Source: Pararhizobium sp. IMCC21322 (GTDB lineage: Bacteria; Pseudomonadota; Alphaproteobacteria; Rhizobiales; GCA-2746425). Taken from it: 64,000 nucleotides of DNA. Positions 8,505 through 33,706 of the stretch are shown piece after piece; positions within the stretch are counted from its first letter, which is position 1; each line of letters begins with the position of its first letter. The stretch is from contig NZ_CP132335.1 in assembly GCF_030758295.1 (NCBI RefSeq), forward strand, positions 1,774,412 to 1,838,411, written 5' to 3'. Both the position numbers and the translations under genes were made by a program. Under the pieces are notes generated by a model. That model saw only the letters and a program-made list of their open reading frames with translations, made no database searches and was not told the origin of the DNA.

Positions 8505-8533
8505 ATATCCAACCCAACCTGATCGTCCAAGTG

Positions 8534-8605
8534 TTGGGACCCGTTACAAACGGGCCCCAATTTGCAGTGAAGGCGTCAGATCAATTTGACTTGATACTGA
8601 CGCCT
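8534..8605. promoter_or_regulatory. two stem-loops between binding-protein and permease genes
   Basis: On the minus-strand transcript the first structure met is 8571-8605: arms AGGCGTCAG and CTGACGCCT extended by ATCAA/TTGAT with one bulged base. The second is 8534-8560: TTGGG-A-CCCGTT pairing with AACGGG-C-CCCAA around ACA. They sit directly after the binding-protein stop. The likely role is 3'-end protection of the binding-protein mRNA and partial termination before the permease genes. Confidence 0.65.
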
Positions 8606-8615
8606 CCCGCGATTT

Positions 8616-10658: not shown

Positions 10659-10988
10659 AGATTTATCTCCTCAGGATGTGCATCAGAACTGACAGTGACT
10701 AGCGTTTCTATATGAAGCTTTTACAACGTGGATTTATCAAAGCCTCTTTGGGGGGAACCGTCAAATGCAAATGAGTGCGAAATTATCCGTTACCAACTCG
10801 GTTCGACCACAGCCCCCTGCGATAGCTCATGAAACCGTACGAACCGTCGAATTATCAGTGAAATCGATTATTCTTATCACAGAATAGGAAATTCTGATGA
10901 TCTTCAATTGCAAGGAAGCACTATCTTCCCGGTCCATGCCAGTCACAAAGCGCTGACATACTTAGGGTTGCAGGATTTGGAGCAGACA
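10659..10988. other. divergent intergenic region (opp-like operon / sulfatase)
   Basis: A 330-bp gap holding the promoters for the minus-strand importer and plus-strand sulfatase. The sequence is AT-rich near 10680-10760 and 10860-10905. I saw no convincing paired -35/-10 boxes, operator palindrome or RNA structure. An in-frame TTG at 10908 could extend the sulfatase but lacks an RBS. Confidence 0.5.
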
Positions 10989-12521: not shown

Positions 12522-12537
12522 AGAAGAGGTGTGGTCG

Positions 12538-12559
12538 GGTCAGCAGGGTTACGCTGACC
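12538..12559. terminator. hairpin at convergent gene ends
   Basis: GGTCAGC (12538-12544) pairs with GCTGACC (12553-12559) around an 8-nt loop, between the sulfatase and the oppositely oriented PCC-protein gene, overlapping the latter's stop. No T-run follows, so termination strength is uncertain. Confidence 0.4.
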
Positions 12560-20309: not shown

Positions 20310-20355
20310 CGCTCAAATCTTTGCGAGGTAAGTGTCAAAATCTGTTGGCTGGTCA

Positions 20356-20958
20356 CTATGAAATCCCAACCGATGTAGTTTTCAAACCGAGTTGCAAGTG
20401 CAGATACTCAGCCACTGTTGCGATTGTATCCAGCCGGCTGGGCGCAATATCCTGCAGCGCTTTGCGAATGTAAAATCCGTCAATCATGGCTGCCAGTCCT
20501 TGTGCAATATGCTCTGCCCGGCTGGGATCGGTCAGCTGTAAAAGGCTGAATAGCAGGTTGGAATGCAGGCGTCGTGCATAGACCTGCAGCAGGCGCTGCG
20601 CGTGCTTTGATTTTTGTGCCTGAACATAAAAGGAAAGCCATGCTGCCACCACCTCGGGTGCAAAATTGCGCGGGTGGAAGCTGGCAGTGATGATGGCTTC
20701 CAGTCGATCCAGCGGATCTTTTACCAACGACAATTCATGGCGCACATGCTCGCCGAATATTTTCAGAATATGACGCATGGCAGCCAGCAAAATCTGATCT
20801 TTACCGCCGAGATAATGATGTGCCAGGCCACTTGAAACGCCTGCGCGTTTTGCAATGCGGCCAACTGTTACGTCGAGCGAACCGATTTCACCGATTTCCA
20901 GAATGGTGGCGTTGATCAGGGCCTGTCGGCGAATGGGCTCCATTCCGACCTTGGGCAT
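20356..20958 (-). CDS. betI: TetR-family transcriptional repressor BetI
   Basis: A choline-sensing repressor of the bet genes. The N-terminus MPKVGMEPIRRQALI is the BetI hallmark. The helix-turn-helix is TVGRIAKRAGVSSGLAHHYL, followed by GGKDQILLAAMRHI. The 200-residue length fits. The gene is the first of betIBA and diverges from choX. A perfect 20-bp palindrome at 21028-21047 lies 69 bp upstream of the start and is its probable operator. Confidence 0.95.
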   Translation of the reverse strand: MPKVGMEPIRRQALINATILEIGEIGSLDVTVGRIAKRAGVSSGLAHHYLGGKDQILLAAMRHILKIFGEHVRHELSLVKDPLDRLEAIITASFHPRNFAPEVVAAWLSFYVQAQKSKHAQRLLQVYARRLHSNLLFSLLQLTDPSRAEHIAQGLAAMIDGFYIRKALQDIAPSRLDTIATVAEYLHLQLGLKTTSVGIS

Positions 20959-21027
20959 TTCGGTCCTCGCTGGTGGCTCTTTTACGCTAAAAAGAGCGGG
21001 GGCTTGCTATGTTCAGGGAATATGTTT

Positions 21028-21047
21028 TTAATTGACTCGTCAATTAA
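21028..21047. promoter_or_regulatory. candidate BetI operator (perfect palindrome)
   Basis: TTAATTGACTCGTCAATTAA is an inverted repeat with 9-bp arms around TC. It sits in the betI/choX divergent region (20959-21145). BetI and related TetR repressors bind such sites, and the position would allow control of both betIBA and choXWV. The assignment is inferred from context. Confidence 0.7.
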
Positions 21048-21145
21048 TAAAAACCGGAAACGTCATCGGAGCCTGAGCTCAGACCGGACTCTGCTCGTTC
21101 ACCGGCTGATCATCAATCGAATAATTCTAGTCATAGGGACCGACC

Positions 21146-22078
21146 ATGAGATTTTTCAAAACAACAGCAGCCAGCATTTTGGTGCTTGGCACGCTTTCAA
21201 CAGCCGTACAGGCAAATTGCGACGCCGTGACCTTCTCCGATGTGGGTTGGACAGATATCACCGCCACAACAGCTGCCACGACCGTCCTGCTGGATGCTCT
21301 GGGCTACGAGACAGATGTGAAAGTCCTGTCTGTGCCGGTGACGTATACGTCCATGGCACGCGGCGACATTGATGTCTTCCTCGGCAATTGGATGCCAACC
21401 ATGGAAGCCGACATTGCTCCTTACCGTGAAGCTAAAACCGTAGATACAGTTCGCGAAAACCTGGAAGGTGCAAAATACACGCTTGCCACCAACGCTGCAG
21501 GCGCAAAGCTTGGCATTACAGACTTTGCCAGCATCGCCAAGAATATGGAGGCTCTGGAAGGAAAGATCTACGGCATCGAGCCAGGCAATGACGGCAACCG
21601 GCTGATCCTTGAAATGATTGAAGCCGATGCGTTTGGCCTGAAGGACTTTGAAGTGGCTGAATCCTCCGAGCAGGGCATGCTGGCGCAGGTTGGCCGGGCA
21701 GACAAGCGTGACGAGCCTGTTGTGTTTCTTGGCTGGGAGCCACACCCGATGAATGCCAATTTCGACCTGACTTATCTGGCCGGCGGCGATGACCATTTTG
21801 GTCCGGATTTTGGCGGTGCCACAGTCTACACCAACACCCGCGCGGGCTATGTTGCAGAATGCCCGAATGTGGGCAAATTGCTCACTAATCTGAAATTCAC
21901 GCTGGCCATGGAAAACGAAATCATGGGCGCAATCCTGAATGACAGCGAAGATCCGGAAGATGCAGCTTCCGCATGGCTGAAAGCCAATGCAGATGTGCTG
22001 GCCGGCTGGCTCGACGGCGTTACTACTCAAGATGGCGGCGATGCCATGGCCGCTGTGAAAGCAGAACTCGGCCTCTAA
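21146..22078 (+). CDS. choX: choline ABC transporter substrate-binding protein
   Basis: A periplasmic choline-binding protein (OpuAC-type fold, 310 residues). Residues 1-23 are the signal peptide (AVQA-N). The four aromatic residues of the Sinorhizobium meliloti ChoX ligand cage (W43, Y119, W90, W205) align here as W35, Y111, W82 and W197 with identical spacing. They occur in DVGWTDITATTA, GAKYTLATN, LGNWMPTMEAD and FLGWEPHPMN. This strongly supports choline as the ligand. The gene diverges from betI and heads choXWV, so imported choline feeds BetA/BetB. Confidence 0.95.
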   Translation: MRFFKTTAASILVLGTLSTAVQANCDAVTFSDVGWTDITATTAATTVLLDALGYETDVKVLSVPVTYTSMARGDIDVFLGNWMPTMEADIAPYREAKTVDTVRENLEGAKYTLATNAAGAKLGITDFASIAKNMEALEGKIYGIEPGNDGNRLILEMIEADAFGLKDFEVAESSEQGMLAQVGRADKRDEPVVFLGWEPHPMNANFDLTYLAGGDDHFGPDFGGATVYTNTRAGYVAECPNVGKLLTNLKFTLAMENEIMGAILNDSEDPEDAASAWLKANADVLAGWLDGVTTQDGGDAMAAVKAELGL

Positions 22079-22089
22079 AGGCAACGGTC

Positions 22090-22150
22090 TGGGGCCTGGA
22101 CCCCAAACAATATGGCCTCCCGATTCGATCAATGGATAGGGAGGCTTTTT
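22090..22150 (+). terminator. stem-loops with T-run between choX and choW (leaky attenuator)
   Basis: A small hairpin TGGGG/CCCCA (22090-22105) is followed by GCCTCCC (22115-22121) pairing with GGGAGGC (22139-22145) and then TTTTT. This looks like an intrinsic terminator with a 17-nt loop. It lies between choX and choW, so it should reduce but not abolish read-through and give excess binding protein. Confidence 0.7.
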
Positions 22151-22182
22151 CTGATAATTCTTATTGGCGGGCTTAAAGACCT

Positions 22183-23019
22183 ATGGAATGGCTGACGGCA
22201 AACAAGATCCCGGTCGGCAAGACCGCCCGATCCGTATTCGACTGGTTGCAGGCCAATGGTGCCTGGTTCTTTGATGGGCTGGCCGTGGGCCTGGAAACCC
22301 TCATCGACGGCATTCTCTGGGTGCTGCAGACACCGCATCCGTTGATCATCATTGCCTTCTTTGTCGGATTGACCTGGTATCTCCAGCGTTCCTGGAAAAC
22401 CTGTCTGCTCATTTTCCTGGGGTTTCTGTTTATTCTCAATCAGGACTACTGGGAAGAAACCACAGAAAGCCTGACGCTGGTTCTGTCCGCCTGTGTGGTC
22501 TGTATGGCTGTTGGCGTGCCAATTGGCATTGCGGCCGCACATAGGCCAAATCTTTATCGCTTCATGCGACCGGTTCTGGATTTGATGCAGACCCTGCCAA
22601 CCTTTGTTTATCTCATTCCTGCAATTGTCTTTTTTGGCATCGGCATGGTGCCGGGTCTTATGGCCACGGTCATTTTTGTGTTGCCGGCGCCCATTCGCCT
22701 GACCCATTTGGGCGTCTCTTCAACCCCGCAACCCTTGCTGGAAGCCGCGGATGCCTTTGGTGCAACCGGCTGGCAGAAATTGGTAAAAGTGGAATTCCCT
22801 TATGCGGTGCCGCAAATCATGGCGGGCCTCAACCAGACGATCATGCTGTCGTTATCGATGGTCGTTATTGCAGCGCTTGTGGGCGCTGATGGTCTGGGCG
22901 TCCCGGTGGTTCGGGCGCTTAACCAGGTGAATGCTGCGCTCGGCTTCGAAAGTGGATTTGTCATTGTTATTGTCGCAATCATGCTGGACCGCATGCTGCG
23001 CGTGGAGCGCCGCAAATGA
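22183..23019 (+). CDS. choW: choline ABC transporter permease
   Basis: An inner-membrane permease of the ProW/OpuAB type, 278 residues. A long N-terminal segment carries helices at about 40-70 and 82-100. The core permease domain (from about residue 105) includes VGVPIGIAAAHRPNLYRFMRP and the coupling loop DAFGATGWQKLVKVEFPYA. The final helices include VVIAALVGADGLGVPVVRAL. It overlaps choV by 4 bp (ATGA). The substrate is assigned from choX. Confidence 0.92.
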   Translation: MEWLTANKIPVGKTARSVFDWLQANGAWFFDGLAVGLETLIDGILWVLQTPHPLIIIAFFVGLTWYLQRSWKTCLLIFLGFLFILNQDYWEETTESLTLVLSACVVCMAVGVPIGIAAAHRPNLYRFMRPVLDLMQTLPTFVYLIPAIVFFGIGMVPGLMATVIFVLPAPIRLTHLGVSSTPQPLLEAADAFGATGWQKLVKVEFPYAVPQIMAGLNQTIMLSLSMVVIAALVGADGLGVPVVRALNQVNAALGFESGFVIVIVAIMLDRMLRVERRK

Positions 23020-24056
23020 GCAATGCTGTTGAATTTGATGCGGTTTCCATTGTGTTCGGGTCCAACCCGAAAAGCGCTCTTCCATCCATGGATGAGGGAA
23101 AGACCCGAGCCGAAGTGCAGGAGCAGAGCCAGCAGGTTCTGGGCGTGCATGATTGTTCTCTGGACGTGAAAGCCGGTGAGATTCTTGTTTTGATGGGGCT
23201 CTCGGGTTCCGGCAAATCAACCTTGCTGCGCGCCGTCAATGGCCTCAATCCGGTGGTGCGCGGATCTGTTCGCGTCAATGATGGTGATCAAATGATCGAC
23301 ATCACCTCTGCCGATAGGAAGACACTGAGACGCATGCGGCTGTCCCATGTTGCCATGGTGTTTCAGCAGTTTGGTCTGCTGCCATGGCGCAGTGTGCGGG
23401 AAAATGTCGGGCTGGGCCTGGAACTCGGCGGCCTTGAAGTGGCGGAACGCAACAGCCGGGTAGATACGCAATTGACGTTGGTTGGCCTGTCTGATTGGGC
23501 AGAGCGCAAGGTTGGTGAACTGTCCGGAGGCATGCAGCAGCGTGTCGGCCTTGCCCGGGCATTTGTTACAGAAGCACCAATATTGTTGATGGATGAGCCA
23601 TTCTCAGCGCTCGATCCCTTGATCCGCACACGCCTGCAGGATGAGTTGCTGGATCTGCAAAGCAGTTTGAAGCGCACGATCATCTTTGTCAGCCATGATT
23701 TGGATGAAGCCTTCAAGATTGGCGACCGCATTGCCATTATGGAAGGCGGGCGGATTATCCAGTGTGGCACGCCGCAAGAGATTTTTTCAGCACCGGCCAA
23801 TGATTATGTGGCCGATTTTGTGGCCCATATGAACCCGCTAAACGTGCTGTGTGCAGAACATATTATGCACCCTGTTACAGGCAATGCACCAACGGTGACG
23901 GTCATCGGTCAGGAAACGATCCAGAACGTTATGGAACTGTTGAAGACCGGTGGCGATGCTGTCGGGGTGGAGAAAGACGGTGTGATCGTTGGCCAGATCA
24001 CGCAGGAAAACATCCTGTCGGCGTTGCTGGATCCGCGTGGAGAAGTGGACAGATAG
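23016..24056 (+). CDS. choV: choline ABC transporter ATP-binding protein
   Basis: ATPase of the choline importer, 346 residues, ProV/OpuAA type. An N-terminal extension (about 1-50) precedes the ABC domain. Walker A is GLSGSGKSTLLRA, the Q-loop MVFQQFGLLPWRS, the signature LSGGMQQRVGLARAF, Walker B ILLMDEPFSALDP and the H-loop VSHDLDEAF. The C-terminal part (about 270-346) keeps one CBS-like segment, shorter than the double CBS of E. coli ProV. The gene ends convergent with the cytochrome gene at 24092. Confidence 0.92.
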   Translation: MSNAVEFDAVSIVFGSNPKSALPSMDEGKTRAEVQEQSQQVLGVHDCSLDVKAGEILVLMGLSGSGKSTLLRAVNGLNPVVRGSVRVNDGDQMIDITSADRKTLRRMRLSHVAMVFQQFGLLPWRSVRENVGLGLELGGLEVAERNSRVDTQLTLVGLSDWAERKVGELSGGMQQRVGLARAFVTEAPILLMDEPFSALDPLIRTRLQDELLDLQSSLKRTIIFVSHDLDEAFKIGDRIAIMEGGRIIQCGTPQEIFSAPANDYVADFVAHMNPLNVLCAEHIMHPVTGNAPTVTVIGQETIQNVMELLKTGGDAVGVEKDGVIVGQITQENILSALLDPRGEVDR

Positions 24057-24091: not shown

Positions 24092-24571
24092 CTATTCGCG
24101 GGATTTGTTTTGCGCAGCTTGCTCATTCATTGCGTCATGCCGCGCCTGCACATCGTCCGGCCAACGTGATTTAATGAAGGACAATACAGCCGTTATTTCG
24201 GCGTCGCTCAGAACGTCCCTGTAGATGGGCATAGCGCTTTCATAGCCCTCAAGCCCTGCAAATTCAGCCAGTCCGTATTTGGTAATTCCAAACAACACGT
24301 CATCGGTGTGATGCCACGTGTGCCCGGTTTCATCATGTGGTGGCGCGGGCAGAAGGCCGTCTTTGCCCGGACGGCGCCAATTCGGCTGGCCCTCAAGGTT
24401 TTCACCATGGCAGGACGCACAATTGGACGCATAGACTTCGCTGCCAAGTTGGACTGCTGCGGTATCTTCTGCGCTGGAAAGGGCGTTTTGGGAGGCAAAC
24501 ATAAATGTTCCGCCCCCCAAAACCAGTATTGAGGACCAACAAATTATATGTCCGGCTTTTGACACCGACAT
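24092..24571 (-). CDS. exported monohaem cytochrome c
   Basis: A 159-residue periplasmic class I cytochrome c. It has an N-terminal hydrophobic signal/anchor (about residues 8-27), the haem motif CASCH (in YASNCASCHGENLEG) and a likely axial Met in YESAMPIYRDVLSD. The final LSDAEITAVLSFIKSRWP helix is typical of the fold. The C-terminus is charged and Gln-rich. It is the last gene of the long minus-strand copper cluster and lies 2 bp after an L,D-transpeptidase. Its redox partner is unknown; it may pass electrons between periplasmic oxidases and the respiratory chain. Confidence 0.85.
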   Translation of the reverse strand: MSVSKAGHIICWSSILVLGGGTFMFASQNALSSAEDTAAVQLGSEVYASNCASCHGENLEGQPNWRRPGKDGLLPAPPHDETGHTWHHTDDVLFGITKYGLAEFAGLEGYESAMPIYRDVLSDAEITAVLSFIKSRWPDDVQARHDAMNEQAAQNKSRE

Positions 24572-24573
24572 AT

Positions 24574-25260
24574 TTATACCACCAGTATCTCTGCATTGGA
24601 CCGCACGCGCTTGTACAAATCAATCACATCCTGATTGATCATGCGCACGCAGCCGCTGGAAACCGACTTGCCGATTGTCCAGTATTCCGGCGTGCCATGA
24701 ACGCGGTACAACGTGTCTTTGTTGCCCTCAAATATATACAGCGCACGCGCACCGAGCGGATTGTTTAGACCTGGTTGCATTCCGCCATTATCTGCGCTGT
24801 ATTTGCGCAGCTCAGGACGTCTTGCAATCATCTCGTCGGGCGGCGTCCATGTCGGCCATGGCCGCTTCCAGGCGACTCTTGCACGGCCAGACCATGCGAA
24901 ACCGGCACGGCCAAGGCCAACCCCGTAGCGCATTGCCTTGCCACCTGGCTCGACCAGATAGAGGTAGTGCGAAGACGTATCGACAATGATCGTCCCGGGC
25001 TTTTCGTTGGTTCGATAGCTGACACTGCGACGCCTGAATTTGGATGGCACCTTGTCCAGATCAATTCCGGGAATTGGGAATTTCTCACTGGGCAGTGGCC
25101 CATACATCGACGCATAATTGCTGAACCTGCCTTCAGTATCGCCTGCGCTATCATCTGTGGCTGTTGTACAGCCCGAAACCGCAAGGCCCAGAATACTGGC
25201 GCTTCCCAGCACGAAAGCGCGCCGTGAGGGCGGGCGTGCCGTATTGTCATCAAAATTCAT
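24574..25260 (-). CDS. L,D-transpeptidase (YkuD family), predicted Tat lipoprotein
   Basis: A peptidoglycan 3-3 cross-linking or protein-anchoring enzyme, 228 residues. The N-terminus SRRAFVLGSASILGLAVSGC has a twin Arg and a lipobox (AVSG-C), so it is probably exported folded and lipidated. The YkuD domain (about 85-228) contains VDTSSHYLYLVEPGGKAMRY, the His motif YRVHGTPEYW and the catalytic SSGCVRM near the C-terminus. It overlaps the second L,D-transpeptidase by 4 bp. The two are about 50% alike by eye, so they probably arose by duplication. Its placement in a copper cluster is notable because these active-site-Cys enzymes are copper-sensitive. Confidence 0.88.
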   Translation of the reverse strand: MNFDDNTARPPSRRAFVLGSASILGLAVSGCTTATDDSAGDTEGRFSNYASMYGPLPSEKFPIPGIDLDKVPSKFRRRSVSYRTNEKPGTIIVDTSSHYLYLVEPGGKAMRYGVGLGRAGFAWSGRARVAWKRPWPTWTPPDEMIARRPELRKYSADNGGMQPGLNNPLGARALYIFEGNKDTLYRVHGTPEYWTIGKSVSSGCVRMINQDVIDLYKRVRSNAEILVV

Positions 25261-25829
25261 ATTACAACTACCTTTGCGCCAATCCTGACGCGTTCATAAA
25301 GATCTTCCACGTGCGCATTTATCATGCGCACGCATCCACTGGATACGTTTCGTCCAATGGACCACGGCTCAGTTGTTCCATGTATCCGAAACAGCGTATC
25401 ACGGCCATTACGGTGGAGATATAAGGCCCTTGCGCCAAGCGGGTTGTTGATACCGCCAGGCAAGCCACCTGCATATTTTTTGTAGCGACGAGGATCACGT
25501 CGGATCATATTCGCCGTTGGTGTCCAGCGCGGCCATTTGGCTTTACGACCAATAGTGGCTGAGCCGTTAAAGGCCAGACCCGCCTTACCAAGGCCAACCC
25601 CGTAACGTCGCGCACGTCCACGTCCGGTGACGAGATACAGGAAATGTTTGCGCTGGTCGACAACAATCGTGCCGACCGGATATCCTTTGAACCGCACAGT
25701 GCGTGGCTTGAATTTGGAGTCCAGTCGGAAGTTTTTCGGTTTGGCAGCCAGAGCGGGCAGCGGTGCTGTCGCAACAAGTGCCGAGATGCCGAGTAGGAGG
25801 TTCCGTCTTGTAAGCATGTCATGCCTCAT
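25257..25829 (-). CDS. L,D-transpeptidase (YkuD family), predicted Tat substrate
   Basis: A second YkuD enzyme, 190 residues. The signal LTRRNLLLGISALVATAPLPALA has a twin-Arg motif and an Ala-rich cleavage site but no lipobox, so this copy should be soluble in the periplasm. The domain includes PVGTIVVDQRKHFLYLV, the His motif FRIHGTTEPW and the active-site SSGCVRMI. It overlaps the downstream lipoprotein paralogue by 4 bp. The pair would make one anchored and one free enzyme of the same type. Confidence 0.88.
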   Translation of the reverse strand: MRHDMLTRRNLLLGISALVATAPLPALAAKPKNFRLDSKFKPRTVRFKGYPVGTIVVDQRKHFLYLVTGRGRARRYGVGLGKAGLAFNGSATIGRKAKWPRWTPTANMIRRDPRRYKKYAGGLPGGINNPLGARALYLHRNGRDTLFRIHGTTEPWSIGRNVSSGCVRMINAHVEDLYERVRIGAKVVVI

Positions 25830-25890
25830 GAATTGTCTAAGGAATAATGCATCTCATGCAGAAGCAAAGATGCGTGTTTAGCCAAGACAA

Positions 25891-26256
25891 TCAGACAATC
25901 GGAGGTCGAAAAAGCGCGTGTCGAAAGGCTGCATTGAGACTGGTCGCCGGCTCATAAGAAGGAATGGTTCCGCCGAACAGGAATTCTGGATTAAAAGCCG
26001 CATTTGTGAATGAACAGTCAGAACTGCAGGGCGCGTTACTGTGGGATGTTTTAAGAGCATCGTCTTCGTCGCAGCATTTCTGTCTTGCGGTCACAATGGC
26101 ACCGCTGCCTGCGACAATGGAGACATCCTGATTAGTATCCGCAACAGCATCCTGCGCGTCCTGAAAGGTTAAATTTGCAAATGCTGTCCCGCTGTCAGGC
26201 AACCCATGGGTGCCGACAAACAAAAGCAACAGCAGAAAACAAATCAATTTCCTCAT
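25891..26256 (-). CDS. small exported Cys-rich protein, function unknown (copper cluster)
   Basis: 121 residues when started at MRKLICF (ATG 26256); an in-frame ATG at 26283 would add nine residues. A signal peptide (about 1-28, GTAFA-N) is clear. The mature part carries a cluster of cysteines: KCCDEDDA, then APCSSDCSF. It ends with HALFRPPIV. The proline-rich ending recalls the other small protein at 29307-29660 (DPPPPRPF). It follows the multicopper oxidase by 75 bp in the same direction. A metal-binding or metal-sensing role is plausible but unproven. Confidence 0.6.
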   Translation of the reverse strand: MRKLICFLLLLLFVGTHGLPDSGTAFANLTFQDAQDAVADTNQDVSIVAGSGAIVTARQKCCDEDDALKTSHSNAPCSSDCSFTNAAFNPEFLFGGTIPSYEPATSLNAAFRHALFRPPIV

Positions 26257-26331
26257 GATTCTCTCATACCCAGAACCGGCCAAAAAATCCAGCCCGGTCT
26301 GATCACCATGCCGTGAGGTCAGTCGGAAGGG

Positions 26332-27768
26332 CTACGCGCTAATCTCAAACCACGTGTTCATTCCGGCAGCCGCATGTTCCAGCATGTGACAGTGCAACAG
26401 CCATTTGCCGGGATTGTCGGCAACGAAGGCAATTTTGGTGGTCTGTTCTGGTCCAATGAGAAATGTGTCGCGCCATGGCTGCCCTTCATCAACGTCACTT
26501 CCGCTGCGCTCCAGAATGCGGAAATGATGTCCGTGGATATGCATGGCATGAAGAAATGCAGTGTTGTTAACCGTGTTCAGAACAATTGTGTCATTTCGCT
26601 GAACCGAAAAAAAGGGCGCATCGGCCAGATTGGCGATGCCGTTGAAAGCCCAAACCTGTCCCGTGTCCCTGAAATCCATTCCTTCCAGCTTTTTGCCTTT
26701 GTAGGTGATGTCGCCGGTCTGCCCCATGGCACCGCCAGTCATATCCAGCGTGAAAACGCGTGCATTTTCGAGGTCGGGTTCTGGCAACTCGTTCGAGATC
26801 AGCGCAGGCATCGCCAGTTCAGACTTCCCCGGTGCAGGATTCGCCGAAGTGCTGTCCGACTTTTCCAAGATCTCGAAACTGGCAATCGAGAATGCCTGTC
26901 CACCTGAAACCTCGTCCAGTTGCATCGGAATTCCCGGTTTGGGAACCACCAGTAAATCGACCCGTTGCGCGGAGCCAAGCAGCAATGGCTGATAAGACAA
27001 TTCTGTTGCAGTCGGCAGGCCTTGACCATCATAGGCAAGAATTTTCGCGCCGAGTTGCTTGGTATCCAGTTCCAGCACACGGGCATTGGATGTGTTGATC
27101 AACCGCAACCGGTAAGGCTCATTCGCGTTCAGTGTGTAGTTGGGCTGGCTCTGGCCATTGACGGTCAGCCAGTTGCCAAGACGCCCGCCATGACTCCAGT
27201 CCATTAATGAGCCAAGGCTGGCAGTGTCAAATTTGCCGGTCTCATCCAGGCGCCAGTCATCCAGAATTAATGTCCGGTCGTGCTCGGTGTCAAAATCAGT
27301 TGTATCGCCTTCGACAATCAGAGCGCCATAGAGGCCACGAGAAACCTGATTCCAGCTTCTGTTATGCGCGTGATACCAATAGGTTCCAGCATCCGGCACA
27401 ATGAAATCATATTCAAAGGTAGCGCCGGGCTCCACGGCTTTCTGGGTCAGGCCGGAAACACCATCCATGTCATTGGCAATGCGGATGCCATGCCAATGGA
27501 TCGATGTTGCTTCTTCAAGCTTGTTAACAAGCCGGACTTTGACCCGATCTCCGCGTTTGACCCTGATTTCCGGTCCCGGTGTGGAATCATTGTAGCTCCA
27601 AAGATCAGACTGGGGCGCATCCTCTGAATAGAGTTTTTGTTGAGAGGGGCCAGCAATTATTTCAAGGAATCCATCAGATGCCACCGATGCCTTGAAACTT
27701 GCTGGGAGCAGGGCGATGCCCAAACTCCCAGCGCTGGATTTGAGAAAAGTTCGTCTGTTGATGGACAT
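26332..27768 (-). CDS. periplasmic multicopper oxidase (cuproxidase/CueO-CopA type)
   Basis: A 478-residue laccase-like enzyme with three cupredoxin domains, likely oxidising Cu(I) to less toxic Cu(II) in the periplasm with reduction of O2. A Tat signal (INRRTFLKSSAGSLGIALLP) exports the folded enzyme. The copper ligands are all visible: SIHWHGIR and GTYWYHAH (types 2/3), HAMHIHGHHF, and LLHCHMLEHAAAGM with the type 1 Cys, His and Met. There is no Met-rich helix like that of E. coli CueO. The gene follows a dihaem cytochrome by 5 bp and lies in the CueR-controlled cluster. Confidence 0.92.
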   Translation of the reverse strand: MSINRRTFLKSSAGSLGIALLPASFKASVASDGFLEIIAGPSQQKLYSEDAPQSDLWSYNDSTPGPEIRVKRGDRVKVRLVNKLEEATSIHWHGIRIANDMDGVSGLTQKAVEPGATFEYDFIVPDAGTYWYHAHNRSWNQVSRGLYGALIVEGDTTDFDTEHDRTLILDDWRLDETGKFDTASLGSLMDWSHGGRLGNWLTVNGQSQPNYTLNANEPYRLRLINTSNARVLELDTKQLGAKILAYDGQGLPTATELSYQPLLLGSAQRVDLLVVPKPGIPMQLDEVSGGQAFSIASFEILEKSDSTSANPAPGKSELAMPALISNELPEPDLENARVFTLDMTGGAMGQTGDITYKGKKLEGMDFRDTGQVWAFNGIANLADAPFFSVQRNDTIVLNTVNNTAFLHAMHIHGHHFRILERSGSDVDEGQPWRDTFLIGPEQTTKIAFVADNPGKWLLHCHMLEHAAAGMNTWFEISA

Positions 27769-27773
27769 GATAT

Positions 27774-28661
27774 TTACTCCTGGTTCATCAGAAAGCTGGC
27801 AATTGCATTCAGATCATCCTGTGCAAGAAAGCGTGTTCCGTCCCGCACAACTTCGCCCATTGACCCGCCAAATGTATCTCCATCGGGCAAGACACCGGTA
27901 CGCAAGGCATAAGCCAGGGACTTTTCTGTCCAGCCATTTTCCATAAGCGCGGTGGTGGTGATGGGTGGTGATTTCCCGCCACCGGGAAGCTTGTCGGCTC
28001 CATGTAATCTGAGTTCCGCCTGTCGTGCGCCTAATGTATTTCGCGGCGTGTGGCACGCGCCACAATGGGCAGGCCCTTCAACAATGAACTTCCCCCGGTT
28101 CCAGGCTTCACTTTGTTCTTTGATTTTCCGGGTTCCGGATTGGTCTAAAAACAAAGCGCGCCATAATTTCAAACCGTCGCGGAAATTGAACGGAAACACG
28201 ACATTCTGATCTACCGAAGGCTGTTCCACAGGAGGCACTGTTTGAAACGCCGCCCACAGATCGGCAACATCCTGGTCGCTGAACTTGGCATAAAATGGAT
28301 AGGGAAAAGCCGGGTAGTAAGGATTTCCCTCGGGGGACACACCCTGCCGCACAGCTTTTGCAAACGTCTCAAGGGTCCAGCCCCCGATGCCGTGTGTCTT
28401 GTCCGTCGTCAGATTGGGAGAATAAAATGTGCCAAAATCCGTTTCAAGCGCAACACCGCCTGCCAAAGGGGCACCTCCATTTTCAGAATCTGTATGGCAT
28501 GCGATGCAACCGGACATGCGGGCGAGATAGGCACCCCGATCAGCGTTGCCGGTCAGACCGGTTAAGTTCCGCGTTTTGCCGATAGGCCAAGCGGTCAAAG
28601 CTGTCACCGCCGCCCCGGTTAACACCAGGGCGGTCAATGATAAAACAATCAATTTCCGCAT
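27774..28661 (-). CDS. exported dihaem cytochrome c
   Basis: 295 residues with an N-terminal signal/anchor (about 1-24) and two class I cytochrome domains. Haem sites are SGCIACHTD (about residue 52) and AHCGACHTPRN (about 200). Sequence such as GGVALETDFGTFYSPNLTTD and LRTGVLPDGDTFGGSMGEVV resembles the cytochrome subunits of gluconate, alcohol or aldehyde dehydrogenases. No dehydrogenase is nearby; the neighbours are a multicopper oxidase (5 bp downstream) and a cytochrome c' (3 bp upstream). It may carry electrons to or from copper oxidation. Confidence 0.87.
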   Translation of the reverse strand: MRKLIVLSLTALVLTGAAVTALTAWPIGKTRNLTGLTGNADRGAYLARMSGCIACHTDSENGGAPLAGGVALETDFGTFYSPNLTTDKTHGIGGWTLETFAKAVRQGVSPEGNPYYPAFPYPFYAKFSDQDVADLWAAFQTVPPVEQPSVDQNVVFPFNFRDGLKLWRALFLDQSGTRKIKEQSEAWNRGKFIVEGPAHCGACHTPRNTLGARQAELRLHGADKLPGGGKSPPITTTALMENGWTEKSLAYALRTGVLPDGDTFGGSMGEVVRDGTRFLAQDDLNAIASFLMNQE

Positions 28662-28664
28662 ATG

Positions 28665-29267
28665 TCAGTTCTTTTCGGAACGAAATTGTGTGTGGCAGGA
28701 AGCGCAGGTCTGCGCCAGCATATTGAACACACCATCAGTAGGCATTGATGCCAATTCGGCTGCGTCTGGCAGGGTGCCTGATTCAGTCGTCATTGAGCCG
28801 GCCATCATGGTGCCAGAAGACGTCATACCGCCAGAAGACGTCATGCTATCTGTGCCCATCATCCCGGAGGCTGGCGCACCTCCAGATGCCATAAGCCCAT
28901 TGTCAGCTGACGCAGCCAGACCCACGGCCAAAGTCTCAAGCCTCATGGCCAGAACCTCAAATTCCTCCCAGTTCGCCCAGATTGTCGGACGCGCCTCGGA
29001 GGGTTTCATCAAACTGTCCTCGGGAAAAAGTTTTGTCATGCTGTTCCCGGCATGCTTTTGGATTTGCGCTGCATTCTTGCGCACCACCTCGGCATCATAG
29101 CTGACGTCTCCCCGCATGATTTCAGTCAGGGATTTTGTAGCCTTGCCCAGGGTGCTCATGGCATCCATGCGTTCCTTTACAACGCCTGTTGCGCCGTTAT
29201 GTGCGTAAGCCGCTGCAGATATAACCAATGCAGCCGCAACCGCAGAAACGATAATCTTTGTTGTCAT
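28665..29267 (-). CDS. cytochrome c'/c-556-type (class II) protein with Met/Ser/Gly-rich insert
   Basis: 200 residues with a signal peptide (about 1-22, AAAYA-H). A four-helix-bundle cytochrome is indicated by VVKERMDAMSTLGKATKSL, the WANWEEFEVLA segment and the C-terminal haem site CASCHTQFR. Between helices 3 and 4 (about residues 130-165) an insert rich in Met, Ser and Gly (GMMGTDSMTSSGGM, then GTMMAGSMTTES) extends the usual 150-residue fold. Met-rich stretches bind Cu(I) in other periplasmic copper proteins, so the insert may do so here. It lies within the copper cluster. Confidence 0.85.
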   Translation of the reverse strand: MTTKIIVSAVAAALVISAAAYAHNGATGVVKERMDAMSTLGKATKSLTEIMRGDVSYDAEVVRKNAAQIQKHAGNSMTKLFPEDSLMKPSEARPTIWANWEEFEVLAMRLETLAVGLAASADNGLMASGGAPASGMMGTDSMTSSGGMTSSGTMMAGSMTTESGTLPDAAELASMPTDGVFNMLAQTCASCHTQFRSEKN

Positions 29268-29306
29268 GTTGTCTTAGTCCTCTTTGTTCCAAAATGCTTG
29301 GCCCGG

Positions 29307-29660
29307 TCAGGCCGTTGTCGTCGTGCTTCTGGAAAAAGGGCGAGGAGGAGGAGGGTCCAGCATGGTCCAGACCCCGTATCTGGAATAGGATTGTCCCACA
29401 GGTATGGTTTGCTCAGTGACAAAACAGTGATGGCCAACCCATTCAATCAGCGCAAGTATGTTGGAGCCGCAATGCAGCGTGCTAGTGTCGGCGTCCTGTT
29501 GATTTTGAGTTAGTGAAAAATGACTGTGGTCACTGGTTTCATCCGGGGCCGCGCTTTGTGAATGCAAATGCAGGCCATCGGCAAAATCTTGCTCATGCAA
29601 AAAGAAACTTCCTGCCAGTATTAATGACAGGCTGCACATGAGCAGCAGAAAACGCTGCAT
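29307..29660 (-). CDS. small exported His/Cys protein, function unknown (copper cluster)
   Basis: 117 residues from MQRFLLL (ATG 29660, one base after the stop of the upstream cytochrome gene). A signal peptide spans about 1-17. The mature chain is His-rich (LHLHSQ, SDHSHF) and has two Cys with flanking His: TLHCGSN and VGHHCFV. It ends DPPPPRPFSRSTTTTA. No known domain was recognised. Tight packing between cytochrome genes and the His/Cys content suggest a metal-related periplasmic role. Confidence 0.6.
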   Translation of the reverse strand: MQRFLLLMCSLSLILAGSFFLHEQDFADGLHLHSQSAAPDETSDHSHFSLTQNQQDADTSTLHCGSNILALIEWVGHHCFVTEQTIPVGQSYSRYGVWTMLDPPPPRPFSRSTTTTA

Positions 29661-29661
29661 G

Positions 29662-30075
29662 TCAGTTGATCCCGTTTGCGCGCTGCAGAGCACGCACATA
29701 GGTTGTTATTTTTCCAACATCGGTTTCGGTTACACCTTCAACGGGCGGCATATCACCAAAGCGCCAATGATGTGCCCTGACACCCAGCTTTGCTGCCCGC
29801 TGAAATGCGATATCTGCATGATGGGAAGGTTCGTACAGCACATGAACCAGCGGTGGGGCCATGCCGTCCCGCCCTGCTGCATCCGCTCCGTGGCATGCGG
29901 CGCAATTCCCGTCGAACAACACGCGTCCCGCTGTTTCTGCGCTGTTGAGCTGCGGAACTGTTACCTGTGCCAATGGCGCACCGGAGCCGGTATTGGCAGG
30001 CGGGGCGAGAAGCCACCAAGCGCCCAACGCGATTGCAACACTTCCGACCAGAGCAATGATGGTTTGTTTATTCAA
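29662..30075 (-). CDS. exported monohaem cytochrome c
   Basis: A 137-residue class I cytochrome c with an N-terminal signal/anchor (about 5-25, IIALVGSVAIALGAWWLL). The haem motif is GNCAACHGADAAG, and the probable Met ligand is in WRFGDMPPVEGVTETDV. The closing helix is ITTYVRALQ. It overlaps cueR by 4 bp (ATGA) and precedes the small His/Cys protein by one base. The small size fits an electron shuttle. PLAQVTVPQLNSAE between anchor and haem domain is a short linker. Confidence 0.86.
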   Translation of the reverse strand: MNKQTIIALVGSVAIALGAWWLLAPPANTGSGAPLAQVTVPQLNSAETAGRVLFDGNCAACHGADAAGRDGMAPPLVHVLYEPSHHADIAFQRAAKLGVRAHHWRFGDMPPVEGVTETDVGKITTYVRALQRANGIN

Positions 30076-30467
30076 CTGCTTGTTCTCCCGGCCAGATCAT
30101 CAATGATCGGGCACGATGGCCTGTCGTCACCATGGCAGTCTGTTGCCAGTGCCGACAATGTTGCTTTCAGCGATTCCAATTCTGCCAGTTTGCGGTCAAT
30201 TTCACCGATCTTGTCAAGCGCCAAACGTTTGACATCGGAACTGGCACGTTCTTCGTCCTCGTATAGCGAGAGCAGCAATCGGCATTCTTCAATCGAAAAA
30301 CCAAGGCTTCTGGAGCGCTGCAGAAACCGCAACCGGTGCAAGTCTGTTTCAGAGTAGTTGCGATATCCGTTTTCGGCGCGGATCGGCTTGAGGAGTGCAA
30401 TTTCCTCATAGTAGCGGATAGTTTTTGCTGGCAATTGCGATGCCTGCGATGCTTCTCCGATATTCAT
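30072..30467 (-). CDS. cueR: MerR-family copper-responsive activator (CueR/HmrR)
   Basis: A 131-residue regulator. The winged helix-turn-helix starts at MNIGEASQASQLPAKTIRYYEE. A dimerisation helix follows, and the metal-binding loop C-HGDDRPS-C places Cys111 and Cys119 seven residues apart, matching E. coli CueR C112/C120 for Cu(I)/Ag(I)/Au(I). ATG 30467 is preferred over an upstream in-frame start at 30497 because it matches the family N-terminus and has AGGTGG upstream. It is 43 bp downstream of copA, and its predicted target is the copA promoter at 32933-32963, so it would be autoregulated within the operon. Confidence 0.92.
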   Translation of the reverse strand: MNIGEASQASQLPAKTIRYYEEIALLKPIRAENGYRNYSETDLHRLRFLQRSRSLGFSIEECRLLLSLYEDEERASSDVKRLALDKIGEIDRKLAELESLKATLSALATDCHGDDRPSCPIIDDLAGRTSS

Positions 30468-30510
30468 ATCAATCCACCTTTCGCCAATTAAGTGCAAACC
30501 CCAGGCAATG

Positions 30511-32859
30511 TCAAAGCTCTAGCCGACGCAAGCGCAGCGCGTTGGAAATCACCGATACCGATGACAGGCTCATCGCAGCTGCCGCCAGCATGGGAGACAG
30601 CAGGACGCCGGTCAAAGGATACAGAATGCCAGCGGCCACAGGCACGCCAAGACTGTTATAGGCAAAGGCAAAAAACAGGTTTTGCTTGATGTTGCGAATG
30701 GTTGAGACCGCCAAAATCCGGGCTTTGGCAATTCCGGCAAGATCTCCACCCAAAAGCGTGATGCCGGCACTTTCAATGGCAACATCTGTGCCCGTTCCCA
30801 TGGCGATGCCGACATCCGCAGCCGCCAGGGCCGGGGCATCATTCACGCCATCGCCTGCCATAGCCACAATATGGCCTTTTGCCTGCAGATCCTTGACCAA
30901 TTGCAGCTTGTCTTGCGGCAGAACGCCAGCCCGAACTTCGTCAATGCCAAGTTCGTTTGCCACCGCTGCTGCGGTGATTTCATTGTCGCCGGTGGCCATG
31001 ATGATGGTCATGCCTGCCGCATGAAGCGCCTTGATCGCATCCTGCGTGCTCGGCTTTATTGTATCAGAAACCGCGATCAAACCGGCAAGGCGGTTGTCAA
31101 CGAGCAGATACATGACGGTCTTGCCAGACTTGCGAAGGGCATCCGCCTGTTGCTCACCGAGGGCCGCATCTGCACCTGTTTCCTGAAGCATCGCTTTGTT
31201 TCCAAGAGTAACGTTCACGTCGCCTACCTTGCCGACAACACCTTTACCAGTAATTGCCTGAAAGTCCTGTGCCGTCTGTAGCGCGATATCCTTGCTTTTC
31301 GCCCCTTCGACAATGGCATCGGCCAAGGGATGTTCGGACCCTTTTTCCAATGACGCGGCGAAAGCCAGCAAAGTCGCTTCATCCCAATCTGCAAGCGGAA
31401 CGACATCGGTCAGAACGGGTGTTCCATTTGTCAGTGTGCCAGTCTTGTCAACGATCACAGTGTCTACCTTGGCCAACCGCTCCAGAGCAGAGGCCTCCTT
31501 GACCAGGACACCGGCCTGGGCCCCACGTCCCGTTGCGGTCATGATCGACATGGGTGTTGCCAATCCCAAAGCGCAGGGACAGGCGATGATCAAAACGGAT
31601 ACGGCAGAAATGATGGCAAATACAAAGGCTGGTTCAGGACCCAGAATGATCCATGCAATAAAGGCCGCAACCGCAATCAGAACGACTGTCGGCACAAAGT
31701 AGGAAGACACCCTGTCAGCCAGTCCCTGAATAGGCGCCCGGGAGCGCTGTGCCGAGGAGACCATTTGCACGATCTTGGCCAGCATGGTCTCTTCGCCAAC
31801 ATGGCTGGCTTCAATAATCAGACTGCCATTCTTGTTCAGAGTTCCCCCGGTTACCTTGTCCGAGACATGTTTTTGCACCGGCAGTGGTTCGCCGGAAATC
31901 ATGCTTTCATCAACTGCAGAAATGCCTTCCAGCACGATTCCATCTACAGGAATGCTGGAGCCAGGTGTTACACGCAGACGGTCACCTTGCAGAATGTTTG
32001 CCAGCGGAGCTTCATACTCAGATCCATCTGCATTGATTCGCCTTGCCGTTTTGGGCGCAAGATCCAGCAGGGCCTTTATGGCATCGCCAGTACGATCACG
32101 CGCACGCAATTCCAGAACCTGGCCAACAAAAATCAGGGCTATGATGACAACGGCTGCCTCAAAGTAAACCGGTGCATGCCCCGCGTCTGTGATTTCCTGC
32201 GGGAACAGGCCGGGCGCAAGGACAGCAACAAGACTGTAGAGATAGGCGGCACCGACCCCGAGCATGATCAGGGTCCACATGTTCAGATTCCAGGTGCGCA
32301 CAGAGGTCCAGCCGCGCTGGAAAAACGGTTGCGCGGCCCAAAGGACAACCGGTGTTGCCAAGGCCAGTTCAAGCCAAAGGGCTGGTTTCTCGCCAATCCA
32401 GTCGCGGATCGGGAACCCCACCATCGGTCCCATGGTCAGGATCAACAACGGAATGGCAGCCGCAATGCTCACCCAGAGGCGACGGGTAAAATCTTCCAGT
32501 TCATGGTTCGGACCATCTGATACACCGTCCATGGGCTCCAGAGCCATGCCACAAATCGGGCAGGTGCCAGGTCCTTCCTGGATTATTTCCGGGTCCATTG
32601 GGCAGGTAAAGAGCGCGGTCTTTGGAGCCGCTTTCTGCTTCCGTTTGTGGTTGCCTGAAAGATAGAAAACAGGGTCTGCCTCAAACCGGTCTTTGCAGGA
32701 TTGACTGCAAAAATGGTAGTCTGCGCCTGCATGAGCAAAGCTGGGCTTGCCGCTGTTCAGGGGCACCGTCATGCCGCAAACGGGATCAATTGCCTGATCC
32801 TGCGCTGATTCAGAATCATGTGATGCATGCCCGCAAGCTGCGCTGTGCTGATGGTCCAT
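30511..32859 (-). CDS. copA: copper-exporting P1B-type ATPase with YHS and heavy-metal-binding N-terminus
   Basis: A 782-residue inner-membrane pump moving Cu(I) out of the cytoplasm. The N-terminus has a His/Cys tail, a YHS domain (DPVCGMTVPLN, about 26-70) and a heavy-metal-binding domain (FTCPMDPEIIQ, GTCPICGMALEP, about 83-110) in place of the usual HMA domains. Eight helices follow. The transport motif is CPCALGLATP, the phosphorylation site DKTGTLT, the nucleotide site GSEHPLADA and the hinge GDGVNDAPAL. The last helix includes MSLSSVSVISNALRLRR. It is the first gene of the cluster; cueR lies 43 bp downstream. Confidence 0.94.
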   Translation of the reverse strand: MDHQHSAACGHASHDSESAQDQAIDPVCGMTVPLNSGKPSFAHAGADYHFCSQSCKDRFEADPVFYLSGNHKRKQKAAPKTALFTCPMDPEIIQEGPGTCPICGMALEPMDGVSDGPNHELEDFTRRLWVSIAAAIPLLILTMGPMVGFPIRDWIGEKPALWLELALATPVVLWAAQPFFQRGWTSVRTWNLNMWTLIMLGVGAAYLYSLVAVLAPGLFPQEITDAGHAPVYFEAAVVIIALIFVGQVLELRARDRTGDAIKALLDLAPKTARRINADGSEYEAPLANILQGDRLRVTPGSSIPVDGIVLEGISAVDESMISGEPLPVQKHVSDKVTGGTLNKNGSLIIEASHVGEETMLAKIVQMVSSAQRSRAPIQGLADRVSSYFVPTVVLIAVAAFIAWIILGPEPAFVFAIISAVSVLIIACPCALGLATPMSIMTATGRGAQAGVLVKEASALERLAKVDTVIVDKTGTLTNGTPVLTDVVPLADWDEATLLAFAASLEKGSEHPLADAIVEGAKSKDIALQTAQDFQAITGKGVVGKVGDVNVTLGNKAMLQETGADAALGEQQADALRKSGKTVMYLLVDNRLAGLIAVSDTIKPSTQDAIKALHAAGMTIIMATGDNEITAAAVANELGIDEVRAGVLPQDKLQLVKDLQAKGHIVAMAGDGVNDAPALAAADVGIAMGTGTDVAIESAGITLLGGDLAGIAKARILAVSTIRNIKQNLFFAFAYNSLGVPVAAGILYPLTGVLLSPMLAAAAMSLSSVSVISNALRLRRLEL

Positions 32860-32932: not shown

Positions 32933-32963
32933 GATTTAGGGCTTCCAGTTACAGGAAGGTCAA
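32933..32963 (-). promoter_or_regulatory. CueR-type promoter of copA
   Basis: On the minus strand TTGACC (-35; 32963-32958) is separated by 19 bp from TAAATC (-10; 32938-32933). The spacer contains the inverted repeat CTTCC-N7-GGAAG (32942-32958). The elongated 19-bp spacer with a CCTTCC dyad is the hallmark of MerR/CueR-activated promoters and closely follows the E. coli copA promoter. Confidence 0.85.
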
Positions 32964-32987: not shown

Positions 32988-33706
32988 ATGTACCGGGTTA
33001 TGCAGACCACAGAAATAGATCTTGTTATTTTTGATTGCGATGGTGTTCTCATAGACAGCGAGATCATCAGCTCGAAAATCCTGATCTCTCAACTGGCGGA
33101 TGCTGGTGTATCGGTAGACTTTGAATATTTCCAGCGCTGGTTTCTCGGGCGCAGCTTTCCCAAAGTGACAGAATCGGTTCGCCAGACTTTTGATGTCGTC
33201 TTGCCGGCTGATTTTGAAGCCTCTTACAGACGCAGATTGCTTCAAGCCTTCAGAACCGAGTTGAAGGCGACTGTCGGTGTGGCCGAGATTGTTGACAATC
33301 TCTCCAGGCCTACTTGCGTCGCCACAAGCAGCACACCTGAAAGGCTGCGCAGATCATTGGAATTAACCGGATTGGCGCATTACTTCGGCAAGGATGTGTT
33401 TACCGCATCTGAGGTGAAAAGTGGCAAGCCGGCTCTGGATTTGTTTTTCATACAGCCGACCAAATGAATGTGGATCCGGAGAAGTGTCTGGTGATCGAAG
33501 ACAGTCTGCCTGGCATGGAAGCAGGTGTTGCTGCCGGAATGCAAGTATGGCGTTTTACGGGGGCTAGCCATTTGCAGGGGCTTGCGCAGGATGACAATGA
33601 CATGTTTCCTGAAGTGCCGGTTTTTGACAATTGGTCAAAATTCTTTGAAATGGCGCCAACATTAAAACAACAAAAACACAGTATCGGGGATATCAGTGTC
33701 CGCTAA
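32988..33706 (+). pseudogene. HAD-family phosphatase broken by a frameshift in a T-run
   Basis: The first frame (to TGA at 33465-33467) has the HAD nucleophile motif LVIFDCDGVLIDSE, ATSSTPERLRRSLELTGL (motif II) and SGKPALDLF (motif III Lys). The second frame continues the fold from MNVDPEKCLVIEDSLPGMEAGVAAGM (motif IV, quoted as two halves joined) to a stop at 33706. Adding one T to the T5 run at 33444-33448 restores a continuous protein of about 238 residues (LF-x-HTADQMNVDPE), the normal length for sugar-phosphate phosphatases. It may therefore be a young pseudogene, a phase-variable gene or a sequencing error. ATG 32988 or 33000 can start it. The next gene overlaps its end by 11 bp. Confidence 0.75.

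Follow-up and report, generated by a model that had tools for sequence, protein, structure and literature searches.

A CutF-like leader open reading frame precedes an L,D-transpeptidase gene in a copper gene cluster of Pararhizobium sp. IMCC21322 and probably controls its translation

Why should genes for cell-wall cross-linking enzymes lie within a copper gene cluster? The question is raised by a stretch of 64,000 nucleotides from Pararhizobium sp. IMCC21322 (contig NZ_CP132335.1, positions 1,774,412 to 1,838,411; hereafter the window), a genome which consists of a single 5.25-Mb contig. The first-pass annotation had proposed that eleven consecutive minus-strand open reading frames (ORFs) at 24092–32859, joined by overlaps or short gaps, specify CopA, CueR, a multicopper oxidase, four c-type cytochromes and two L,D-transpeptidases (LDTs). 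The ORF coordinates bear out the arrangement, and Pfam/NCBIfam matches the composition (Table 1). The answer which we favor involves the small ORF8, located immediately upstream of the first LDT gene (LDT1). Based upon the sequence evidence below, we consider it probable that LDT1 is under copper-responsive translational control of the CutF type, presumably within a CueR-led operon.

CutF of Rhodobacter capsulatus, which belongs to a CutF–CutO–CutG system (PMC9973294, PMC8456105), is a copper sensor acting as a nascent exported chain. The following gene, whose Shine-Dalgarno sequence is covered by a hairpin, is translated only if CutF possesses its Cys motif and its Pro-rich C-terminus (PMC9973294). 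ORF8 fits this published description. Its start was moved from the listed position 26283 to a better ATG at 26256, giving 121 residues, which is within the size limit for CutF-like proteins (<150–170 aa). It possesses a hydrophobic start (from a Kyte-Doolittle window; signal peptides were judged by hydrophobicity alone), a CxxxC motif (CSSDC) and a C-terminal Pro-Pro in the sequence RPPIV, which abuts the stop codon 73 nt upstream of LDT1. The start of LDT1 was itself placed at the ATG at 25817 (186 aa) in preference to the listed one. As with other CutF-like proteins no Pfam domain is present: neither a Pfam nor an NCBIfam family scored above cut-off for ORF8, and ten relatives likewise lack a Pfam match. 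The ratio of nonsynonymous to synonymous substitution rates (dN/dS) of ORF8, 0.24, agrees with its being translated. The shared traits include a small ORF with a Cys motif and Pro-Pro near the stop (the hydrophobic start of ORF8 standing where CutF has a signal sequence), a short gap, and a predicted hairpin shielding the Shine-Dalgarno sequence of a Tat-exported (twin-arginine translocation) downstream protein. The systems differ in that a multicopper oxidase follows CutF whereas an LDT follows ORF8; that here the 5' arm of the hairpin overlaps the RPP and stop codons; and in the motifs, the window having CC...CxxDC and the leader endings being RPP[I/K/R/N].

How often does such an ORF precede an LDT gene? 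Seven LDT1 proteins (alignment A1) served as queries against a collection with one genome per species (84,980); of 575 matches the best 80, a best-scoring sample and not a census, were taken as LDT1-type loci. We defined a leader ORF as having 80–170 aa, a hydrophobic start, at least two Cys, PP in the last 15 residues and a gap of 0–120 nt to the following gene. With these criteria fixed and first starts used, one was found upstream of the LDT in 32 of the 80 loci as against 6 of 781 other ORFs of at least 200 aa in the same loci. When the small ORF was permitted to begin at an internal Met, in both sets alike, the counts rose to 34/80 (adding L055 and L097) and 8/781. The fairest control, in which the control ORFs could begin at any start among their first 60 codons, gave 11/781, compared with 34/80 (Fisher p 2e-29, uncorrected for kinship); these eleven comprise five cytochrome c' genes, three LDT2 genes and three others. 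The gaps between leader ORF and LDT1-type gene measure 36–75 nt.

In a tree of the LDTs all 36 rows with a leader ORF fall into one subfamily of 69 rows (96/88) which also contains leader-free clades; L055 and L097 still carry the leader-free label in this tree. LDT2, three paralogs from the same genome and an Agrobacterium row lie outside it. Four further genomes were compared with the source genome, all of one genus, and there 4 of 29 distinct YkuD loci have a leader ORF, all four being LDT1-type (L002, L018, L036 and L037, whose LDT ORFs were not found automatically, and matches without a locus are not part of this count).

The leader proteins, 100–138 residues in length, keep a narrow distance between their motifs. 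In each of 35 proteins (the 34 loci plus the window) we located the Cys closest to the final PP among those 15 or more residues ahead of it. Its distance to PP is 37–42 residues in 34 of them, with 17 at 37, one at 38, nine at 40, five at 41 and two at 42 (counts given without comparison to a random model). Only L058, where an additional Cys pair occurs late in the chain, falls outside this range. In R. capsulatus CutF the same distance, worked out from the coordinates in PMC8456105, is 42.

The junction between ORF8 and LDT1 was then considered as RNA. The segment 25812–25914 folds with a minimum free energy of –26.1 (z –2.66), and 6.4 bases of the LDT1 ribosome-binding-site region are expected to pair with the 5' arm. 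Altogether 36 junctions were folded (the 32 strict loci, the window, L039, L041 and L045), each segment running from the last 24 nt of the leader ORF, stop codon included, to the LDT start. Fold z values are below zero in 35 and –2 or lower in 21. The ribosome-binding site is paired with the 3' end of the leader in all 36 (mean 8.4 expected bases, threshold 3), as compared with 68 of 175 other same-strand junctions having gaps of 30–80 nt (mean 3.0) and 12 of 30 leader-free LDT starts. The two loci added afterwards pair too (L055, 7.9 bases; L097, 10.9).

Column covariation in the Rhodobacter-type junctions (alignment A2) could not inform, these being too conserved, and an arm-swap test was therefore used instead. 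Across 27 loci the own arms gave –16.0 against –10.3 ± 0.58 kcal/mol for permuted arms (0 of 20,000 permutations); nine near-copies had been left out, and the outcome was the same with all 36. Since base composition could help pairing, the 5' arm was also compared with other Shine-Dalgarno starts of the same locus. In 29 of 36 cases the pairing with its own start exceeded the average for these others (Wilcoxon p 9e-7). Like the genes themselves, the leader ORF–LDT association and the conserved motifs, the co-varying sequestration hairpin is a computed observation.

With the leader-ORF criteria frozen, a second sample was drawn from 397 genomes of the order. It yielded 30 loci, of which L129–L131 were already known and three of the other 27 duplicated the first set, duplicates being defined by identical last 60 residues of the LDT. 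Fourteen of the 24 new loci have a leader ORF, and the ribosome-binding site is sequestered in 13 of these. Cys–PP distances were 37 (six loci), 41 (five) and 23–27 (three). Among the ten negatives are loci of other than LDT1 type, as well as L136, where the upstream sequence extends over only about 200 nt.

We infer copper as the ligand, stalling, the direction of the switch, a single transcript and a physiological role, as follows. CueR would activate the operon. Without a ribosome held on ORF8, the codons for RPPIV and the stop would pair with the LDT1 ribosome-binding site, leaving LDT1 off. Copper would bind CC...CxxDC of the emerging ORF8 chain and the ribosome would pause at Arg-Pro-Pro, covering the 5' arm of the hairpin; the LDT1 start would be freed and LDT1 made. 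When the second Pro of RPP occupies the P site, the ribosome would shield about 15 nt downstream, the stop and much of the 5' arm among them. The Pro codons of ORF8 would thus double as pause signal and as part of the arm opposing the ribosome-binding site. LDT2 would be made as well, by way of its 4-nt overlap with LDT1. The outcome would be a copper-induced supply of periplasmic LDTs of the Tat type.

Copper reportedly inhibits L,D-transpeptidases (Peters et al. 2018). In its most likely role, the system would keep up L,D-cross-linking or the anchoring of the envelope at a time when the existing enzymes are inhibited by copper at their Cys active site; this would amount to a replacement or extra supply of LDT under copper. 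One candidate source of copper tolerance, a change of the His adjacent to the catalytic Cys (SHGC to S[NS]GC), was rejected as not specific to these LDTs; S or N occupies this position in 38/38 LDTs with a leader ORF, 45/46 without, and most LDTs of the genus.

Three loci (L079, L087 and L092) have an LDT2 behind a CutF-like ORF of its own. No sequestration hairpin was found at these starts (0.2–1.1 expected bases), and we make no claim for leader-ORF control of LDT2 there, which may work differently.

The window contains a possible second CutF-like leader, ORF4, for which the case is weaker than for ORF8. It lies 39 nt upstream of the gene for cytochrome c', on which it may act likewise, and has an HC[GA] motif and a C-terminal Pro-Pro motif (DPPPPR) in ...PPPPRPFSRSTTTTA. 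Its relatives before cytochrome c' end in DPPPPRILF (L051) and EPPPPRIS (L081), and its dN/dS against L049 is 0.34. Neither CxxxC nor CxxC is present in ORF4, its Cys residues being 15 positions apart (HCGSNILALIEWVGHHC). With the 24-nt arm used for ORF8, pairing to the cytochrome c' ribosome-binding site amounts to only 0.24 expected bases. Because the Pro codons are further from the stop the arm was lengthened to 48 nt, and these codons then pair with that site (6.0 expected bases, in both the window and L049). The L081 leader reaches 11.6 bases with the 24-nt arm; that of L051 was left unscored for pairing. Leader ORFs before cytochrome c' in Rhodobacter-type loci (L089, L093 and L100) showed no sequestration at the starts tried (0.0–2.2).

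Might ORF8 and ORF4 be ordinary periplasmic copper-binding proteins or chaperones, encoded beside the enzymes which they serve, with the hairpins as mere transcript or coupling elements? CutF itself was read in this way early on. A start resembling a signal peptide, Cys/His motifs and a fixed neighborhood all agree with this. Conservation, however, is mostly confined to the Cys motif and the extreme C-terminus, the remainder diverging: the ORFs before LDT1 in G001 (L041), in L039 and on the Nitratireductor plasmid L045 are mostly dissimilar to ORF8 yet keep CC...C..DC and an RPPI end. Both ORFs also change faster than their neighbors, with dN/dS values of 0.24 and 0.34 against 0.05–0.16. A chaperone does not predict the near-constant Cys–PP spacing. 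RPP, moreover, is placed nearly at the stop, in a region paired with the next ribosome-binding site at every junction folded. We regard this explanation as unlikely.

A switch of the opposite sign is provided by the CruR/DUF2946 upstream ORF of Bordetella pertussis (PMC9426467), another copper-responsive leader ORF with a Cys motif, a C-terminal Pro motif and fixed spacing. CruR acts negatively through CXXC and a C-terminal RAPP spaced by 45; it has no signal-sequence requirement, is followed by a 162-nt intergenic region and is shut off by copper in a Rho-dependent manner (PMC9426467). By analogy, metal would relieve pausing, the downstream genes would go off, and LDT1 would be made at low copper. 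ORF8 has no PF11162 (DUF2946) match, RPP in place of RAPP, and CxxDC. Furthermore, it lies in a copper-export operon with a CueR box, its gap is short, and the ribosome-binding site is sequestered by the ORF end in such a manner that a pause would open it. A switch which turns LDT1 off with copper seems improbable here.

The first-pass annotation had placed the LDTs in a CueR-led transcript. CueR regulons include copA and cueO. The present cluster resembles them in having a CueR box before copA and a multicopper oxidase, and differs in that cueR lies within the cluster alongside cytochromes and LDTs. The box is the sole zero-mismatch match in the window and lies about 80 bases from copA, which backs CueR-type control of copA; around it we read in the sequence a TTGACC and a 19-nt spacer. 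Similar boxes occur upstream of copA in L049, L051, L058 (one mismatch), L061 and L113. A scan of the loci allowing at most one mismatch gave 88 matches (strands counted apart, many by chance); where the downstream gene was recognized it was a copA-type ATPase or cueR, and no box was found directly upstream of a leader ORF–LDT pair.

A single transcript for the cluster is suggested by this box and by the spacing, with 4-nt overlaps at cueR/cytochrome c and LDT1/LDT2, gaps of 1–5 nt at four junctions, and wider ones between ORF4 and cytochrome c' (39 nt), copA and cueR (43 nt), ORF8 and LDT1 (73 nt) and the multicopper oxidase and ORF8 (75 nt). Promoter-like matches in the cluster region are at background (9 versus 6.5 ± 2.4 in shuffles) and terminator-like matches above it (16 versus 9.2 ± 2.9). 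The five minus-strand terminator-like matches are all intragenic, none falling in the gaps on either side of ORF8. Of the earlier proposal, then, CueR-type control of copA and the association of copper genes with LDTs stand; that the LDTs simply ride on a CueR transcript is not required, given the evidence for the leader ORF. The first-pass annotation also suggested that the cytochromes might pass electrons from Cu(I) oxidation to the respiratory chain.

The neighborhood, whose conservation had been suggested as a check, is kept in related genomes (G003 and, in part, G001), and the copper–LDT association is more than a chance one, copper markers flanking LDT1-type loci with a leader ORF more often than those without (see below). 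In G003, of the same genus, all eleven genes occur in the same order, with identities to the window of 85–97% for nine genes, 66–69% for ORF4 and 87% for ORF8 (L040 and L049 are one contig and were counted once). In G001 nine genes were found; LDT2 and the dihaem cytochrome were not. The source genome itself possesses a paralogous copper cluster (L039, G000:C1:427001–447000, about 5191–14524) with cueR, cytA, a CutF-like ORF, LDT1 (66%), LDT2 (63%), cytD and a second, more distant multicopper oxidase bearing a Met-rich stretch. Further proteins there we take to be CopC, CopD, DUF411, DsbB and DsbA; the names are our own, DUF411 being assigned after plasmid homologs. Cytochrome c', a multicopper oxidase of the window type and an LDT occur together in L049, L051, L061 and L081 (4 of 80 loci), and copA, cueR and a multicopper oxidase in L049, L051, L052, L061 and L064 of the same 80.

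Relatives of LDT1 were detected by tblastn in 689 plasmid records, 396 of which cover most of the query. Of five plasmid loci which were read, four have copper or metal genes around them, the Bradyrhizobium locus L048 less clearly so, and a leader ORF is present in four of the five. A tblastn search of the plasmids with one leader peptide returned two records only, because the leader family is too diverged for this method. At L046 the leader ORF (11618–11944) is missing from the gene table of the public plasmid record; such ORFs are easily overlooked. The LDT1 locus of L051, on a contig filed under a Phycisphaerae metagenome-assembled genome, is near-identical to that of the Nitratireductor plasmid L045 and is probably mis-binned or mobile.

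A Rhodobacter-type island (L089, L093, L094, L095, L097, L100, L101, L107 and L047) carries two divergent LDTs, cytochromes and penicillin-binding protein 2. In the two islands checked, L047 and L093, a leader ORF is found on one of the two LDTs only. Penicillin-binding protein 2 and the second LDT are in line with a set of genes for envelope repair.

The copper link extends beyond these examples, copper markers being found in the flanks examined of 20 of 34 LDT1-type loci with a leader ORF versus 7 of 46 without (markers were BLAST references, and P-type ATPases at ≥35% may include other metals). That the LDTs are hitch-hikers in copper islands which collect envelope genes, with a CueR-controlled operon or an LDT promoter of their own and no leader-peptide mechanism, would agree with these 20 loci, with the envelope genes of plasmid islands and with a promoter-like match (at background rate) within ORF8, but is highly improbable given that the ORF–LDT pair persists when neighbors change, including at 14 loci without copper markers, and that the hairpin co-varies and was found again at new loci.

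Several observations weigh against translational control of LDT1 by copper through ORF8. Of the loci with a leader ORF 14/34 (e.g., L059, L062, L065, L071 and L073) have no copper marker in the flanks examined, and therefore the pair can occur apart from copper genes; the leader may respond to a different metal, or the copper genes may lie elsewhere. Conversely 46 of the 80 LDT1-type loci have no leader ORF, including the whole clades Phyllobacterium, Roseovarius and Tropicimonas, and CxxxC proper is present in only 15 of 35 leader proteins, the window included. The promoter-like match within ORF8 is on the minus strand (26010–25983), so that the LDTs may have a separate promoter. Strong stalling by the PP motif alone could not be demonstrated for CutF in PMC9973294.

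The geometry and the folding raise points of their own. In the CutF model copper is sensed outside the membrane. A stretch of 37–42 residues barely clears the ribosome tunnel, and at pausing the Cys residues would presumably sit near the ribosome exit and not deep in the periplasm. Only 21 of the 36 junctions reach z ≤ –2 (L116 has z +0.28), 39 of 201 competitor starts of the same loci tie or beat the own pairing, and the own start is best in only 18 of 36. The hairpin had been noticed before the first set was tested, which leaves the 24-locus set as the only one out of sample. In that set sequestration is absent from L145 in spite of its leader ORF (0.01) and borderline in L146 (3.1). The LDT starts there come from alignment, 4 of 14 being TTG or GTG, and close kin may remain.

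Weighing these points, we still hold copper-responsive control of LDT1 through ORF8 to be probable. For the wider proposition, a widespread alphaproteobacterial family of metal-gated arrest peptides dedicated to L,D-transpeptidases, which combine nascent-chain copper sensing with Pro-Pro codons serving as an anti-Shine-Dalgarno element and occur inside copper islands as well as alone, we lean in favor with reserve.

Table 1. Features of the copper gene cluster in the window, in order of reading on the minus strand
Feature	Position	Strand	Evidence
CueR-type operator CCTTCC-N7-GGAAG, upstream of copA	32942..32959	–	sole zero-mismatch match in the 64-kb window
copA, copper-type P-type ATPase with N-terminal YHS and HMBD domains	30511..32859	–	TIGR01511 587 bits, cut-off 397; PF00122, PF00702, PF19335, PF04945
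cueR, Cu(I)-responsive MerR-family regulator	30072..30467	–	TIGR02044 162.5 bits, above cut-off 147.4
c-type cytochrome, one CxxCH, hydrophobic N-terminal segment	29662..30075	–	PF00034
ORF4, possible second CutF-like leader ORF before cytochrome c', ends ...DPPPPRPFSRSTTTTA	29307..29660	–	without Pfam/NCBIfam match
cytochrome c' (CASCH)	28665..29267	–	PF01322 78.7 bits
c-type cytochrome, two CxxCH (motifs read in the sequence)	27774..28661	–	PF00034
multicopper oxidase, Tat-like start, four His-rich copper motifs read in the sequence	26332..27768	–	PF07732, PF07731, PF00394
ORF8, CutF-like leader ORF, 121 aa	25891..26256	–	hydrophobic start, CC...CSSDC, ...LFRPPIV end at stop
predicted RNA hairpin	25824..25905	–	5' arm, final codons and stop of ORF8; 3' arm, LDT1 ribosome-binding site
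LDT1, YkuD L,D-transpeptidase, Tat-like start, SSGCVR active site	25257..25817	–	PF03734 81.4 bits
LDT2, YkuD L,D-transpeptidase, Tat-like start then lipobox-like Cys, SSGCVR	24574..25260	–	PF03734 80.8 bits
c-type cytochrome, one CxxCH	24092..24571	–	PF00034

The multicopper oxidase displays the CutO/CueO-type pattern of three cupredoxin Pfam domains and four Cu motifs, and its best solved relative is 4f7k (E 2.4e-94); the NCBIfam CueO and CopA-type models all scored below cut-off. Both LDTs combine PF03734 with SxGC[VI]R and an upstream HG, the nearest solved chain to LDT1 being 6v45 (E 1.7e-58). The four c-type cytochromes include one cytochrome c' and one with two CxxCH motifs.

The cluster is flanked by genes of opposite orientation on the plus strand, a betaine-type ABC transporter (21146–24056) and a HAD-like ORF from 32988. 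The former belongs to an adjoining region (18855–24056) with an aldehyde dehydrogenase, probably for betaine aldehyde, a BetI-type regulator and the glycine-betaine-type ABC transporter. The HAD-like phosphatase (32988–33706) is in two pieces in different frames which meet near 33467, and looks broken.

The next-door neighbors of CutF-like ORFs given by Ozturk et al. include outer-membrane efflux proteins, RND parts, TonB-like proteins and PCuAC (PMC9973294). The words YkuD, transpeptidase and peptidoglycan are absent from the main text of that paper, as are YkuD and transpeptidase from the main text of PMC8456105. An LDT-linked leader is also present in R. capsulatus SP108 (L093). Among the papers listed by our literature searches, none was found to describe a cell-wall cross-linking enzyme under copper control or to connect CutF with LDTs.

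SecM, VemP and MifM, named in PMC9973294, are likewise nascent exported chains which control a downstream gene, but their targets belong to the secretion and insertion machinery (SecA, SecDF and YidC2). With LDTGo and the YcbB-type L,D-transpeptidases (PMC10864386, PMC12729407) the present LDTs share the YkuD domain and catalytic Cys; they differ in being small single-domain enzymes with a Tat-like start. The stimulus sets ORF8 apart as well. SecM, VemP and MifM sense the activity of machinery and not a metal, whereas ORF8 would sense copper.

If the proposed control is real, a copper sensor would be linked to peptidoglycan remodeling through a nascent-chain switch, and the CutF principle would gain a new class of target. 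The recurrence of LDTs in copper islands and on plasmids would be explained. The family would, in addition, offer dozens of natural variants in which the effects of Cys-to-PP spacing and of an overlapping anti-Shine-Dalgarno element on the response may be followed.

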